A stretch of 64,000 nt of DNA from Mycobacterium barrassiae (GTDB taxonomy: Bacteria; Actinomycetota; Actinomycetes; Mycobacteriales; Mycobacteriaceae). The notes beneath the pieces were generated by a model. That model searched no databases. It had not been told where the DNA came from and saw nothing but the letters and a program-made list of their open reading frames with translations. Each line of letters starts with the position of its first letter. Position 1 is the stretch's first letter. Where the stretch lies: NCBI RefSeq assembly GCF_025822765.1, contig NZ_JACKUK010000016.1, positions 250,458 through 314,457 of the forward strand, read 5' to 3'. A program made the translations under genes and the position numbers. This document shows positions 55,144 to 62,661 of the stretch, piece by piece.

Positions 55144-57318
55144 TTGAGCGGAAATGCAGTGCGGCTGCAGGCGATCGTCAACGTCGAGGCCTACGAGCCG
55201 CCGGCGGTGAGCTTCGACCCCGGCGAGGAGCCGGGCGAGATCTTCGGATCGAACGTGTTCACCAAGGCCGAGATGCAGACGCGGCTGCCCAAGTCGGTCT
55301 ACAAGTCGGTCATCGCCACGATCGAGAAGGGCGTCAAGCTGGACCCCGCAGTCGCCGACACGGTCGCCGTCGCCATGAAGGACTGGGCGCTGGAGAAGGG
55401 CGCCACGCACTACGCGCACGTCTTCTATCCCATGACCGGGTTGACCGCCGAGAAGCACGACAGCTTCCTCGAACCGATCTCTGACGGGCAGACACTGGCC
55501 GAATTCGCAGGCAAGACCCTGATTCAGGGTGAGCCCGACGCGTCAAGCTTCCCGTCCGGCGGCCTCCGCAGCACCTTCGAGGCACGCGGCTACACCGGGT
55601 GGGACGTCACCAGCCCCGCCTACATCCTGGAGAACCCGAACGGCAACACGCTGTGCATCCCCACGGTGTTCGTGTCGATGACCGGTGAGGCTCTCGACTT
55701 CAAGACGCCGCTGCTGCGCAGCCAGCAGGCGATGGGCACGCACGCCGCGCGGATTCTGAAGCTATTCGGCCACACCGACTTTGAAAACGTCGTCTCATTC
55801 TGCGGCCCCGAGCAGGAGTACTTCCTGGTCGACCGGCACTTCTTCCTCGCCCGCCCGGACCTGATCAATGCCGGCCGCACCTTGTTCGGCGCCAAGCCGC
55901 CCAAGGGCCAGGAGTTCGACGACCATTACTTTGGTGCAGTGCCTGAGCGGGTGCTGGGCTTCATGATGGATACCGAGCGGGAGCTGTTCAAACTCGGCAT
56001 CCCGGCCAAGACTCGGCACAACGAGGTCGCGCCCGCGCAGTTCGAGGTCGCGCCGATGTTCGAGCGCGCCAACATCGCCTCCGATCACCAGCAGCTGCTG
56101 ATGACGGTGTTCAAGACGATCGCTCACAAGCACGGCATGGAGTGCCTGTTCCACGAGAAACCGTTCGCCGGAGTCAACGGTTCGGGTAAGCACGTCAACT
56201 TCTCGGTGGGTAACTCCCAGTTCGGCAGCCTGCTGGTGCCCGGTGACACCCCGCACGAGAACGCGCAGTTCCTGGTCTTCTGCGCGGCGGTGATCCGGGC
56301 GGTGCACAAGTTCGGCGGCCTGCTACGGGTTTCGGTGGCCTCGGCCACCAACGATCACCGGTTGGGTGCCAATGAGGCTCCGCCGGCAATCATCTCGATC
56401 TTCCTCGGCGAGCAGCTCGCCGACGTCTTCGAGCAGATCGCCAAGGGGGCCGCGACCTCCTCGAAGGGCAAGGGCGTCATGCACATCGGCGTCGACACCC
56501 TGCCGGCGCTGCCCACGGACCCCGGTGACCGCAACCGCACCAGCCCGTTTGCGTTCACTGGCAACCGGTTCGAGTTCCGCGCGCCGGGCTCGGGTCAGAC
56601 GGTCGCGGTGCCGATGATCATCATCAACACGATCATGGCCGACTCGCTGGACTACATGGCGACCCTGCTGGAGAAGGCCGTCGCTGACGGCGAGGACTTC
56701 GACTCGGCGGTGCAGAAGCTGCTGACCGACATCATCACCGAGCACGGCGCGGTGGTGTTCAACGGCGACGGCTACTCGGAGAACTGGCAGATCGAAGCGG
56801 CCGCGCGTGGTCTGCCCAACCTGAAGACCACGCCGGATGCGATCCCCGAGCTGATCAAGCCGGAGTCCATCGCGCTTTTCGAGAAGTACGGGGTTTTCAA
56901 CGAGCGCGAGCTCTACAGCCGCTACGAGGTGCGGCTCGAGCAGTACGTGCTGACCATCGCGGTGGAGGCCAAGCTGGCCCTGGAGATCGGTTCGACCGTG
57001 ATCCTGCCGGCCGCGATCCGGTACCAGACCGAACTCGCCCAGAACGTCGCGGCCTTGAAGGCGGCCGGCGTCGAGGCGGACACCACGCTACTGGAAAGAG
57101 TCTCTGCGCCGATCGCCGATCTAACCAAGGCGCTGAGCGATCTCAAGGCCGCGATGGGCACACACGTCGACGGGGCAGTCGAGGAGGCGCTGCACTACCG
57201 CGACACCATCCTGTCGGCGATGGCCACGGTGCGGGAGGCCGCCGACACGCTGGAAGGCGTTGTGGCCGACGATCTTTGGCCGCTACCCACCTATCAGGAA
57301 ATGCTCTACATCCTCTGA
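55144..57318 (+). CDS. Glutamine synthetase type III
   Basis: 724 aa, the size of GSIII (GlnN), much longer than GSI. Key blocks: [28 protein letters not shown] (metal-binding Glu), [31 protein letters not shown] and [20 protein letters not shown]. It joins ammonia to glutamate using ATP in the cytosol. GSIII is not the main mycobacterial enzyme (GlnA1 is GSI), so this is an accessory activity. TTG 55144 is the start, with ATAGGAA before it. It is the last chromosomal gene before the integrated element. Confidence 0.93.
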
Positions 57319-57338
57319 GTTAGCAGTTCAGCGGGCAT

Positions 57339-57979
57339 TTACTGCGCATCGGGCCGCACTCGGGCCGCAGTAAGTGCCTCGCTCAACATCTGGGCCGCAG
57401 CACTGCGGGTACGGTCCTCAGCCTTCGGCCACAGATGCGCGAGTACGTGTTTAGCGTCAACGACGCTGACCCGTGGCGCATTGCCCGTTGCACAGTCACC
57501 ACGTCGCACCCGGCAGCGATGAGACCCGATGCGTAGAAGTGCCGCAGGTCATGCAGTTTGAAACTCACCTTGGCTTTGGTGCGTGTTTTGTTCCACAGGT
57601 ACCACGCTGAGTTCTGATGAAGCGGGTTCTCGCCGTCGCCGGGGAACATCCAACGGTCGGGATCATCGCCGGGTATGTGAAGGCGCACATGCTCAGACAG
57701 AATTGTTACTAGTTCTTCTGGAATGTAGACGGTGCGTTCACTGCCGTACTTGGGTGGCCGGATATCCACGCCACCACCGTTCACCAACTGGGCCTGTCGC
57801 TGAACATGTACCTCGCGGCGCATAAAGTCAATGTCCGAAACCTTAAGTCCCGCAGCTTCTCCCAGACGCAGGCCACCAAACGCGCACAGCGCCACAAACG
57901 CGGTGAAACCTTCTGGCGCATGGTGCAGAGCATCGCCAACCTGAGCAGTAGTCGGAATGACATTGCCGGTCTGGTCTAT
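57339..57979 (-). pseudogene. Tyrosine recombinase (phage integrase), truncated and frameshifted
   Basis: Catalytic half of a phage integrase. In order: FGGLRLGEAAGL (Arg I), PPKYGSERTVYIP (Lys), HDLRHFYASGL (HxxR), GSASLTLNTYSRI (Tyr). Just after the Tyr an extra CG shifts the frame: without it the sequence continues as HLWPKAEDRTRSAAAQML to a TAA at 57339-57341, the normal integrase end; with it the frame closes at 57383. The N-terminal arm- and core-binding domains are missing; upstream sequence still reads PTTAQVGDALHHAPEGFTAF before it meets capsid sequence of opposite orientation at about 57980. Inactive in integration as it stands. Confidence 0.8.
57351..57378. repeat. Left direct repeat, candidate att site
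   Basis: GGGCCGCACTCGGGCCGCAG plus TAAGTGCC. Matches the right copy at 24 of 28 positions. It falls within the 3' end of the original integrase frame, as many attP/attL sites do. No tRNA is involved. Confidence 0.6.
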
Positions 57980-58590: not shown

Positions 58591-59490
58591 TCATCCCTCA
58601 GCCACTTCGCTGGTCCGGCCCTTTGTGAGATCGGCTATCCGCTCCGCCGACGGCAAAATCTCGTCTGGTACATCTGAAATGATATGCGTCAGTACCATTT
58701 CGGCTTGTCGCAACGAATTCATCACGCACTCGGTATAACTCACCGTGGCCACGTGTCGCTTCGCTCGTCCCCGCGCACCCGCCTCACAGTAATTCGCTAT
58801 CGCAGCGAATCCAACCTGCGATGAGATTACGTTGCGGAAGTCGTCTCCAGGGGCCCTCAAAGGGTTTTCGTTGGGATACGCATCGATGAAGTCGACGCCA
58901 ACGTTGTTGGAGTAATCCCATAGCCCGTGAGCCCCCAGCACCGTCAACGGCATCGGGATTTCGCGATCCATCATTTCAACCACGGTAAGGATCAACTTTG
59001 TCCGTGGAAATGAGAGTCCATGGTCAGGCAAGGGCAGCCTAGTCGTTACAGCGGGTGGCGGGTTGGCGTCGAAGGCCTCGATAGTGCGGAAGGCCTCTTC
59101 GAGGACATCACGTAGTGCTGGCAGCGTGTGTGGTTTCGGGAAGTGGTCGTAACCGAAAGCTTTGGGGTCAGCCTTGCGAACTTCGGCTGACACCATCGAA
59201 AGCAAATCGTTCGCCATGTCGATGAAACCCGAAAACAGCCCGTGCACAAAAATTAACAACGGTTCTGTGCGGCTTTCGGCCTCCTCCCGCGAACGGATCG
59301 TCTCGAAGCGGGACACCAGCAAGTTGCTGAGCACAAGACCGGGCCCCAGCAGTGCAAGTGTCGCCAACACGTTGAGCCAAAAATTGTGGAAGTCGACTGA
59401 CGAGCCACGCCAGATCGCTGCGGCACTGTAAGAACACCGCCGGTAGTCAGACTCAAAGGGAGGAAGTCTTTGCGGCGAGCTGCAATCCAC
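58591..59490 (-). CDS. Membrane-anchored protein of unknown function (element cargo, possible frameshift)
   Basis: 299 aa from GTG 59490. One TM helix near the N-terminus (FHNFWLNVLATLALLGPGLVLSNLLV) and a cytosolic alpha/beta domain containing LLIFVHGLFSGFIDMANDLL, PLTVLGAHGLWDYSNN and EVRKADPKAFGYDH. A better start seems to lie in another frame at ATG 59516, with an RBS-like GAGGGAA and residues MSVGSKITKWIAARRKDF, needing a shift near 59430. So the gene may be broken or the sequence may hold an error. It is divergent from the Abi-alpha-like gene. No family was recognised. Confidence 0.6.
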   Translation of the reverse strand: MDCSSPQRLPPFESDYRRCSYSAAAIWRGSSVDFHNFWLNVLATLALLGPGLVLSNLLVSRFETIRSREEAESRTEPLLIFVHGLFSGFIDMANDLLSMVSAEVRKADPKAFGYDHFPKPHTLPALRDVLEEAFRTIEAFDANPPPAVTTRLPLPDHGLSFPRTKLILTVVEMMDREIPMPLTVLGAHGLWDYSNNVGVDFIDAYPNENPLRAPGDDFRNVISSQVGFAAIANYCEAGARGRAKRHVATVSYTECVMNSLRQAEMVLTHIISDVPDEILPSAERIADLTKGRTSEVAEG

Positions 59491-59606
59491 TTAGTGATCT
59501 TGCTGCCTACGGACATAGCGATCAGTTTCCCTCATTCGCCCAATGGCAACGCCCCCGCCCTCGCGCATCGTCCCGGTCCGCTCAGGGCCGAAGTAGCGTG
59601 TAGCGC

Positions 59607-60443
59607 ATGGTGGAACCTTCGATCGGTGCAGCGAAAGCGATTGAGTCGGTGGGTAAGGGTGTCTCCGAAGCGACGGGGAACGTGCTGACCCGCATGTTTG
59701 GCCCGGCAGGGGACGAAATCGGAGAGTATCTTCGCCGCAACCTCCATTACCGGCTGAACAACGCAGAGAAGATCGCCGAAAAGGCGGAGCGCAAGCTTGA
59801 GAAACAGGCTCGCAAGAATGGCACGGTTGCGCCGAGGCTCGCATGGACATTGCTTGAAGAGGGAACCTACAGCGACGACGAACTGATGACGGACTACCTA
59901 GGTGGCGTACTGGCTGCGGGGATCACACCAAGCGGCAGGGATGACCGGGGAGTCTCGTGGTCGAAGATGATTACTTCGATGAGCGCCTTGCAGCTTCGTG
60001 CGCACTTTATTTTCTATCGAGAGTGGGCGCTTGCGTTGCACGGGAAAACCGATATCGACCTAAGGACGGACGACGGCATCACCAAGGCGGTCATGTACGT
60101 GAACGACGAAGAGCTGACCCCAATCCTCGCTGAAGTCGTTCCTGACCTCTCCCAGGATGCGGTAGTTACGGATGTCCTCACCGGACTGTTGCGGTTTGAC
60201 TTGATTGGTGACGGATATCTGATCGGCAACCCGAAGGAAATGGATAGGCCATTCCCAGAAGGTCTGCCTTTCCCAGAGGTTTTCCGCGTTCACCCAACGA
60301 TCACCGGTCTTACTCTGTTCGGCTGGGGGTGCGGGCTAGCCGACATTCACCCTTTGGAGTTCACTCGGACGACCGAATTTTTGGACGTAGATGTACCGAT
60401 TGCTCGTCCGAGCGTCTTCCTGCCCGACGCGGGGACCGACTGA
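59607..60443 (+). CDS. Abi-alpha-like (DUF4393) protein, possible phage defence
   Basis: 278 aa, soluble, helix-rich. The N-terminal region VGKGVSEATGNVLTRMFGPAGDEIGEYL, then a charged helix (RLNNAEKIAEKAERKLEKQ), VAPRLAWTLLEEGTYSDDELMTDYLGGVLA and MSALQLRAHFIFYREW match in layout the abortive-infection alpha (DUF4393) family: FGP-x3-E-I-G, a K/R-rich helix, P-x-L-x3-LLE with acidic D-D. A longer C-terminal domain follows. Abi-alpha proteins are linked to abortive infection but the mechanism is unknown. ATG 59607. Its seat between the att-like repeats fits cargo of an integrated element. Confidence 0.55.
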   Translation: MVEPSIGAAKAIESVGKGVSEATGNVLTRMFGPAGDEIGEYLRRNLHYRLNNAEKIAEKAERKLEKQARKNGTVAPRLAWTLLEEGTYSDDELMTDYLGGVLAAGITPSGRDDRGVSWSKMITSMSALQLRAHFIFYREWALALHGKTDIDLRTDDGITKAVMYVNDEELTPILAEVVPDLSQDAVVTDVLTGLLRFDLIGDGYLIGNPKEMDRPFPEGLPFPEVFRVHPTITGLTLFGWGCGLADIHPLEFTRTTEFLDVDVPIARPSVFLPDAGTD

Positions 60444-60459
60444 CTCTCCTACCAATCTC

Positions 60460-60487
60460 GGGCCGCAGTGGGGCCGCAGTTGGTGCC
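60460..60487. repeat. Right direct repeat, candidate att site
   Basis: GGGCCGCAGTGGGGCCGCAG plus TTGGTGCC, the partner of 57351-57378 (24/28). It lies just after the Abi-alpha-like stop. Confidence 0.6.
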
Positions 60488-60687
60488 GTTTGGCAGTCTT
60501 GATTGTTCGTGATATTGCCTGTCCAGGCGCTATTTCTCCACGGTTTCCAACAACGTCACATCACCGTAAAAGGCCAGTTGAACGATGCTCTACATTTTGT
60601 GAGTCGTCGCCGAGTGTGGGGGAGGTCCATCCCTATATGGGATCTGGTGACTCGCATTCCCGCACTCGGCGATCCCTCGTTCGGTGC

Positions 60688-61903
<1,216 letters not shown>

Positions 61904-62554: not shown

Positions 62555-62661
62555 ATACCACTGGGGGTATGTTGAGAACACTAGAGAAACATACCCCCAT
62601 GGGTATTGTCAAGACGGGAATAACATACCCCATAGGGTACTTGACATACCCGTAGGGGTAT
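62555..62661. promoter_or_regulatory. Four CstR-type operators in the divergent promoter region
   Basis: Boxes: ATACCACTGGGGGTAT (62555-62570), ATACCCCCATGGGTAT (62591-62606), ATACCCCATAGGGTAC (62625-62640) and ATACCCGTAGGGGTAT (62646-62661). Starts are 36, 34 and 21 bp apart. TTGACA (62641-62646) abuts the last box, fitting repression of the dioxygenase promoter. The first two are nearer the rhodanese start. Confidence 0.88.

Follow-up and report, generated by a model that had tools for sequence, protein, structure and literature searches.

The founding member of the Abi-alpha family (DUF4393; Pfam PF14337), ef2833 from prophage 6 of Enterococcus faecalis V583, is one gene encoding 272 amino acids, and the available portion of the report describing it indicates that, when tested on a plasmid, it causes abortive infection with premature lysis (PMC6356687). 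In Mycobacterium, integrated regions that combine an integrase with a capsid gene have been termed candidate PICIs, phiRv1 and phiRv2 included, according to the accessible text of PMC10654092.

We analyzed a 64-kb stretch of DNA (hereafter, the window) that lies on contig C16 of a 5.9-Mb genome (G000), probably of Mycobacterium in the wide sense to judge by gene content and the related elements, and carries a phage-derived insertion, approximately 3.3 kb long, at the 3' terminus of a type III glutamine synthetase (GSIII) gene. Within it are a plus-strand gene related to Abi-alpha and a minus-strand gene encoding a membrane protein (MEM). The former resembles ef2833 as a single gene on a phage-derived element (278 vs 272 amino acids), the likeness to Abi-alpha being profile-level homology to other PF14337 members. 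The element resembles the candidate Mycobacterium PICIs and phiRv in having integrase and capsid sequences in a small integrated region, and differs from them, as far as the accessible text of PMC10654092 describes them, in surviving in the window as a remnant of 3.3 kb and in having a glutamine synthetase gene as its site. The single-gene defense family and the kind of element are already known, and what appears to be new is the divergent branch. In the reading we favor, this is probably a divergent Abi-alpha-superfamily gene that serves as defense cargo in a wrecked satellite or prophage, most likely acting alone.

A phage-derived remnant at the end of a glutamine synthetase gene

The features of the element are collected in Table 1. 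At its ends is a direct repeat (ATGCTCTACAT....TGAGT; 20 nt, 17 identical), an attL/attR repeat as expected of a candidate Mycobacterium PICI. A search of the 64-kb window with the left copy, at up to three mismatches, gave no match beyond the two copies themselves, and 100 shuffles gave none. The G+C content is 0.577 in the element vs 0.652 in the window.

Table 1. Coordinates, in the window, of the element, its attachment site, and its genes
Feature	Position	Strand	Basis or remark
Type III glutamine synthetase gene	55144-57318	+	GSIII_N E 1.2e-75; 3' end is the left att copy
attL	57301-57320	+	17/20 identical to 60585-60604
Possible integrase arm-site repeat, left copy	57349-57378	+	Paired GGGCCGCA(C/G)T words; putative role
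Tyrosine integrase remnant	57383-57895	-	C-terminal catalytic half only, 170 aa
HK97-type major capsid protein, last 49 residues	57974-58120	+	Comparison with full capsids
Head-tail adaptor, 108 aa	58126-58452	+	phrog_137 E 4.4e-5
MEM gene; product with two membrane helices and a C-terminal soluble domain	58591-59516	-	Frame interrupted near 59427-59430
Divergent intergenic region	59517-59606	.	90 nt
Divergent Abi-alpha (DUF4393) superfamily gene	59607-60443	+	Open ORF, 278 aa
Possible integrase arm-site repeat, right copy	60458-60487	+	87% to left copy; putative role
attR	60585-60604	+	Right copy of 20-nt direct repeat

An empty-site comparison, in which we set the joined flanks, and the left junction as a control, against 11 relatives, had a mixed outcome. 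The joined flanks aligned further than the left junction in five relatives (17-18 nt past the repeat in L034-L037, and 10 nt in L031) and less far in the other six (L032, L033, L038-L041); in L041 the left-junction control reached 15 nt beyond the repeat. The right flank was matched in 3 of the 11 (L034, E 3e-7; L035, 1e-5; L038, 4e-4). As for the attachment site, here the 3' terminus of the GSIII gene, the main text of PMC10654092 nowhere uses the word "glutamine."

Both the integrase and the capsid are present in the window as fragments only, while related loci hold fuller gene sets. The integrase remnant (Phage_integrase, E 1.7e-20) covers only positions 293-434 of the 611 in phrog_1 (E 3.8e-31), and the capsid remnant is 73-88% identical to the final 48-49 residues of four full capsids (L077, L084, L082, L090). 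Absence of the integrase N-terminus and of nearly the whole capsid gene makes a large internal deletion likely, and its junction would fall between integrase and capsid, just upstream of 57974. The original prediction had spoken of att-like repeats, a dead integrase, and capsid debris around two genes carried as cargo by a decayed phage-derived element; this remnant anatomy bears it out, and both predicted open reading frames are present at the coordinates given.

The capsid and adaptor are of a type that recurs in further genomes of the genus. The window adaptor had no match among phage records. Of 198 genomes of the genus, 39 (that of the window among them) have relatives of the adaptor, at a total of 49 places, one being that in the window; G000 itself has three further capsid and adaptor loci of the same type, on contigs C23, C35, and C41 (L087, L089, L090). 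We retrieved the other 48 places and located the adaptor by tblastn in 46, leaving out L117 and L090, the latter even though blastp did find its adaptor. The capsid match ended directly upstream of the adaptor at 42 of these 46 loci, and many of the 20 loci viewed had, on one strand, terminase-like, portal-like, scaffold-like, capsid, and adaptor genes in that order, the terminase and portal labels being assigned by position and eye, without a family match. One of 58 sampled ORFs from the slot downstream of the adaptor matched a tail-terminator family, and full prophages may therefore be among the related loci. The element is the remains either of a capsid-encoding PICI/phiRv-like element or of a closely related prophage. 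Its history probably ran as follows: through its tyrosine integrase, a small capsid-encoding element of one of these kinds would have inserted at the 3' terminus of the GSIII gene, bearing cargo in the slot that separates its last head gene from attR, and would later have lost everything between the middle of the integrase gene and the end of the capsid gene.

Relationship of the plus-strand gene to Abi-alpha

Against Pfam Abi_alpha the plus-strand protein scored 13.3 bits (E 0.083), below the gathering cut-off of 29 bits. Two relatives, gp35 of Gordonia phage Toast (18.6 bits) and L008 (15.2 bits; from an Acidobacteria MAG, its start cut by the contig end), also scored under the cut-off and matched overlapping parts of the profile. 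A third relative, L009 from a Hyphomicrobiales MAG, passes the same cut-off at 72.5 bits and was matched by the window protein in BLASTP (2e-13). Using hhalign, we compared a profile of the divergent branch (A7; the window protein, Toast gp35, L008, and the one divergent-branch gene of G694, a genome of the same phylum) with a profile of seven Abi-alpha proteins (A9). These thin profiles (4 and 6-7 sequences) matched with probability 96.9, E 1.8e-10, and a score of 77.5 over residues 30-201; control scores were 14.7 for the MEM profile, 12.6 for the reversed profile, and at most 20.7 for 30 column shuffles. Since L009 alone scored nearly as high against A7 (76.1), this bridging member was removed and the match was rerun. 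Against the remaining six Abi-alpha proteins, A7 still matched over 200 columns (probability 94.4, E 8.7e-8, score 59.3, 30 shuffles at most 17.2), with an alignment spanning model columns 53-270, and realignment of the six-member set gave a score of 53.6.

Simpler searches did not make this connection. BLASTP of the window protein against the canonical Abi_alpha of a sister element in genome G035 (discussed below) gave nothing (E 13), and HMMER profiles of the divergent and canonical branches each failed to find the representative of the other at E ≤1. On the level of sequence, the two branches are joined solely by profile-profile comparison and the L009 bridge. From these comparisons we conclude that, as judged by its sequence, the plus-strand gene belongs to the same superfamily as Abi-alpha, in a divergent branch, and the kinship named in the original prediction is supported.

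The divergent branch has features of its own. A DDEL stretch followed by YxGGxLA is common to all four members and sets the window protein apart from the Abi-alpha family. So does a C-terminal tail, which extends (by eye) approximately 34-70 residues past the terminal motif in the divergent branch, whereas canonical members end there; this T-x-x-G motif was itself placed by eye, at 231-244, and a regular expression missed it in most canonical members. The original prediction of a longer C-terminal domain is accordingly partly right: by eye, the window protein has roughly 34 extra residues, as its three closest relatives do in kind, and its total of 278 amino acids is ordinary for the family.

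Other libraries yielded little. PADLOC returned 0 families for the plus-strand protein at E ≤1, NCBIfam returned none, and PHROGs gave a single weak match, to a family with no assigned function (E 0.17). The models of PADLOC PDC-S47, a single-gene candidate defense system, matched L009 and the sister element's canonical Abi-alpha, but neither the window protein (E ≤1) nor Toast gp35 (E ≤0.1). The comparisons add a divergent branch, missed at Pfam and PADLOC thresholds, to a one-gene family for which abortive infection has been tested. The predicted structure of the plus-strand protein was poor (mean pLDDT 46.8, pTM 0.48). Among solved structures this protein had two matches at E 0.87-0.89, A9 had only weak, unrelated-looking ones (best E 0.15), and A7 and the membrane family had none. 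A housekeeping identity for the gene was considered and rejected: no further match appeared in Pfam, NCBIfam, or PADLOC. A sigma-70 scan of the divergent intergenic region found no consensus-like site, a type of scan that may not suit this host.

Relatives of the branch are few. The closest named one is Toast gp35 (36% identity over 81%, E 6e-35); with its counterpart in Gordonia phage PCoral7 it accounts for the matches among phage records (3 of 50,697, two being the same phage). Across four genome sets the family was present in 1 genome of 61, 1 of 298, 2 of 217, and, counting a 50-residue piece as the second, 2 of 396; each count includes the window's own genome. No viral contig was matched by the window protein, the other members retrieving a Toast-length contig only, and plasmid records held no Abi-like match. 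The contig scan that gave L008 and L009 was based on a pair of short peptide patterns, and little can be read into absences from it. PF14337 itself had no match in G000 and 14 control genomes; over seven chosen genomes it matched in G035 and G024. Our literature search found no mention of "Gordonia phage Toast" and, among the matches listed, no description of the divergent branch, including in the available text of PMC10654092, PMC9122126, and PMC6356687. The 50-residue piece (L007, G078:C1:2730197-2730346) is C-terminal and adjoins a tRNA-His gene, and the site is probably that of another lost element.

One may ask whether the two genes are now anything more than decaying debris with no present function. 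The integrase, capsid, and MEM are all broken, and the arrangement is known from one genome only. Against this, the plus-strand ORF remains open over 278 codons, aligns to Toast gp35 over most of its length, and has gene-like codon-position G+C (0.62/0.43/0.67). The capsid end, however, is still 73-88% identical to other capsids, and loss may thus be too recent for an open ORF to mean selection. We regard the debris explanation as rather unlikely. That the plus-strand gene is an Abi-alpha-type defense gene in origin seems, from its sequence, quite probable; that the present copy still works is less so, because the element is dead.

The sister element and the slot downstream of the adaptor

The sister element in G035 has a capsid end 77% identical to that of the window over 49 residues. 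Its genes are, in order, serine-integrase-like (25% to that of L053), terminase-like and portal-like (52% and 43% to those of L071), scaffold-like, capsid, adaptor, and a lone Abi_alpha; the gene called next is GTPase-like by eye, and no MEM match was found in this stretch. The 286-residue slot protein is a genuine Abi_alpha, at 146.9 bits and E 9.7e-43 (PADLOC PDC-S47, 5e-33). A canonical Abi-alpha in the same post-adaptor slot of a sister element supports the interpretation of the window gene as defense cargo, as had been originally suggested. Five Abi-alpha genes in phages of Staphylococcus, Streptococcus, and Moraxella were viewed with 600 nt on each side: both immediate neighbors were on the opposite strand in four, and the gene of Moraxella phage Mcat4 had one co-directional neighbor.

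The plus-strand gene might instead serve the element itself, in lysogeny control or the blocking of related elements, rather than broad defense. Toast gp35, of the same branch, is encoded (as in PCoral7) on a phage genome with an integrase and an immunity repressor and lies near both genes, and superinfection control and defense are hard to separate by sequence. It differs from the window protein in its length (328 amino acids) and longer tail, in belonging to a complete phage, in its position one gene from the serine integrase, and in its annotation as hypothetical. Homology to a family with a tested abortive-infection phenotype, as the available part of PMC6356687 describes it, and the position of Abi-alpha alone after the head genes of the sister element both argue against a role confined to the element, which we consider unlikely.

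If the defense reading is correct, gene 59607-60443, which is still open, would be expressed from the integrated element, and its protein would act on an incoming phage at a late step, by sensing that step or interfering with it, by analogy with the Abi-alpha of Enterococcus prophage 6. The infected cell would then lyse or die too early, and few phages would be released. By the same analogy, the protein would most likely act alone.

We also surveyed the slot elsewhere. At least 3 kb of downstream sequence was available for 44 of the 46 adaptors; 172 ORFs were called beside the 46, and 58 were chosen (start ≤1.9 kb, ≥120 amino acids, composition limits). At E ≤0.001, PADLOC matched 38 families in these 58, the best 25 of the 38 each in one member. 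Among the matches listed were mad6, PD-T4-6, PDC-S47 (i.e., the Abi-alpha), MkoA, C3a189 kinase, and PglW; our guess is that mad6, PD-T4-6, C3a189, and PglW reflect one ordinary protein kinase (Pfam Pkinase, one member). Individual slots held a TIR-effector-like protein (L074:5544-6329, on G035:C52; PADLOC 3.1e-6) and a trypsin-like protease (L082:7725-8465, in G191; Trypsin_2 2.2e-12, PADLOC LmuA 4.9e-7). A defense "hotspot" was rejected as a finding, as the slot matches lack a background rate. It is conceivable, if doubtful, that the region between adaptor and att, in capsid-encoding elements of this genus, is a turnover site for single defense genes (the two Abi-alpha branches, TIR-like, trypsin-like protease), that MEM is one more gene for anti-phage action or helper interference, as yet undescribed, and that the divergent branch is shared between such elements and Gordonia phages. 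The slot is, in any case, a place within small capsid-encoding elements in which to look for defense genes; no paper on defense slots in such elements was found among the matches listed in our literature search, as far as the texts were accessible. Two slot ORFs, L073:7203-7895 and L085:5529-6257, look alike by eye ("LSGLLRLILIDKPTPL" vs "LAGLLRLMLTDE") and may be recurrent cargo; clustering at E 1e-5 kept them apart.

The interrupted membrane-protein gene

The minus-strand ORF called at 58591-59490 (299 amino acids) is the 3' part of MEM with an accidental start. An intact MEM relative in G031 (309 amino acids, 82% identical) aligns in two pieces that lie in different frames: its residues 1-29 correspond to 59516-59430 and its residues 31-308 to 59427-58597. 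The ORF was accordingly rejected as a complete protein. The first 30 codons of MEM are hence out of frame, and the break falls inside the first of two hydrophobic stretches. On the evidence of one genome, it may be a mutation or a sequencing error; this copy probably makes no working product. The divergent arrangement noted in the original prediction stands, but with starts at 59516 and 59607, since the called ORF lacks a natural start.

MEM had no match in family libraries, solved structures, phage or plasmid records, or viral contigs. Of 396 genomes of the genus, 7 have MEM relatives, that of the window among them; weak matches in G412 (E 6e-4, two stops) and G514 (E 1e-3) were set aside. 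Hydropathy gave two N-terminal hydrophobic stretches in four of the five relatives scanned. The five other MEM loci all lie in mobile-looking DNA. That of G024 has a tyrosine integrase, a helicase, and a capsid, and that of G297 a serine integrase (by eye), a replication gene, and an adjoining capsid. The G188 locus has a replication gene and, 0.4 kb off, a tRNA-Met gene, with no integrase or capsid match; in G214 there is a serine-recombinase fragment (by eye), and MEM itself is split over two frames. The G031 locus has an integrase-like region (31% identical) and a trypsin-like gene (PADLOC PDC-S45, 1.5e-11).

These loci bear on the proposal, made in the original prediction, that the two genes form a two-gene system, a soluble Abi-alpha-like sensor and a membrane effector retained after the phage body was lost. 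Such a pairing would suit divergent neighbors 90 nt apart between att sites, one of them from a family with two N-terminal hydrophobic stretches, and soluble/membrane defense pairs do occur in phages and satellites, according to the accessible text of PMC9122126. Yet MEM is frame-broken in its first helix, and the families did not keep company elsewhere: the pair was seen at 0 of 5 other MEM loci and 0 of 46 adaptor slots, which, within these samples, is the outcome that the original prediction had named as its refutation. With tblastn (three queries; 11-26 kb at each locus, one of the two G297 stretches) no Abi-alpha-like gene was found at any of the five loci, nor did profiles of both Abi-alpha branches find one over all six MEM stretches from these loci. 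Conversely, the MEM family was absent from ORFs within 3 kb after the 46 adaptors. In G024 both families are present, on separate contigs; the sister element has Abi-alpha alone; Toast gp36, beside gp35, is without a hydrophobic helix; and the founder Abi-alpha is one gene, as the available text of PMC6356687 describes it. The lack of an Abi-alpha-like gene at the five MEM loci and of MEM in the 46 slots argues that MEM is recurrent cargo in its own right and not a regular partner. We therefore consider a two-gene sensor/effector unit very improbable, which removes a false lead, and prefer the plus-strand gene as a single-gene system; MEM would be cargo of its own, carried by further elements of this kind and interrupted in the copy here.

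In the DNA to the right of the element, ATACCC..GGGTAT-type palindromes occur at 60997-61015, 62555-62573, 62588-62606, and 62623-62641. They surround a minus-strand gene for a CsoR/CstR-family repressor (60688-60996; PF02583, E 1e-23) together with TauE-like and rhodanese-like ORFs (by eye), and their appearance suggests operators in an operon for the sensing of metal or persulfide.
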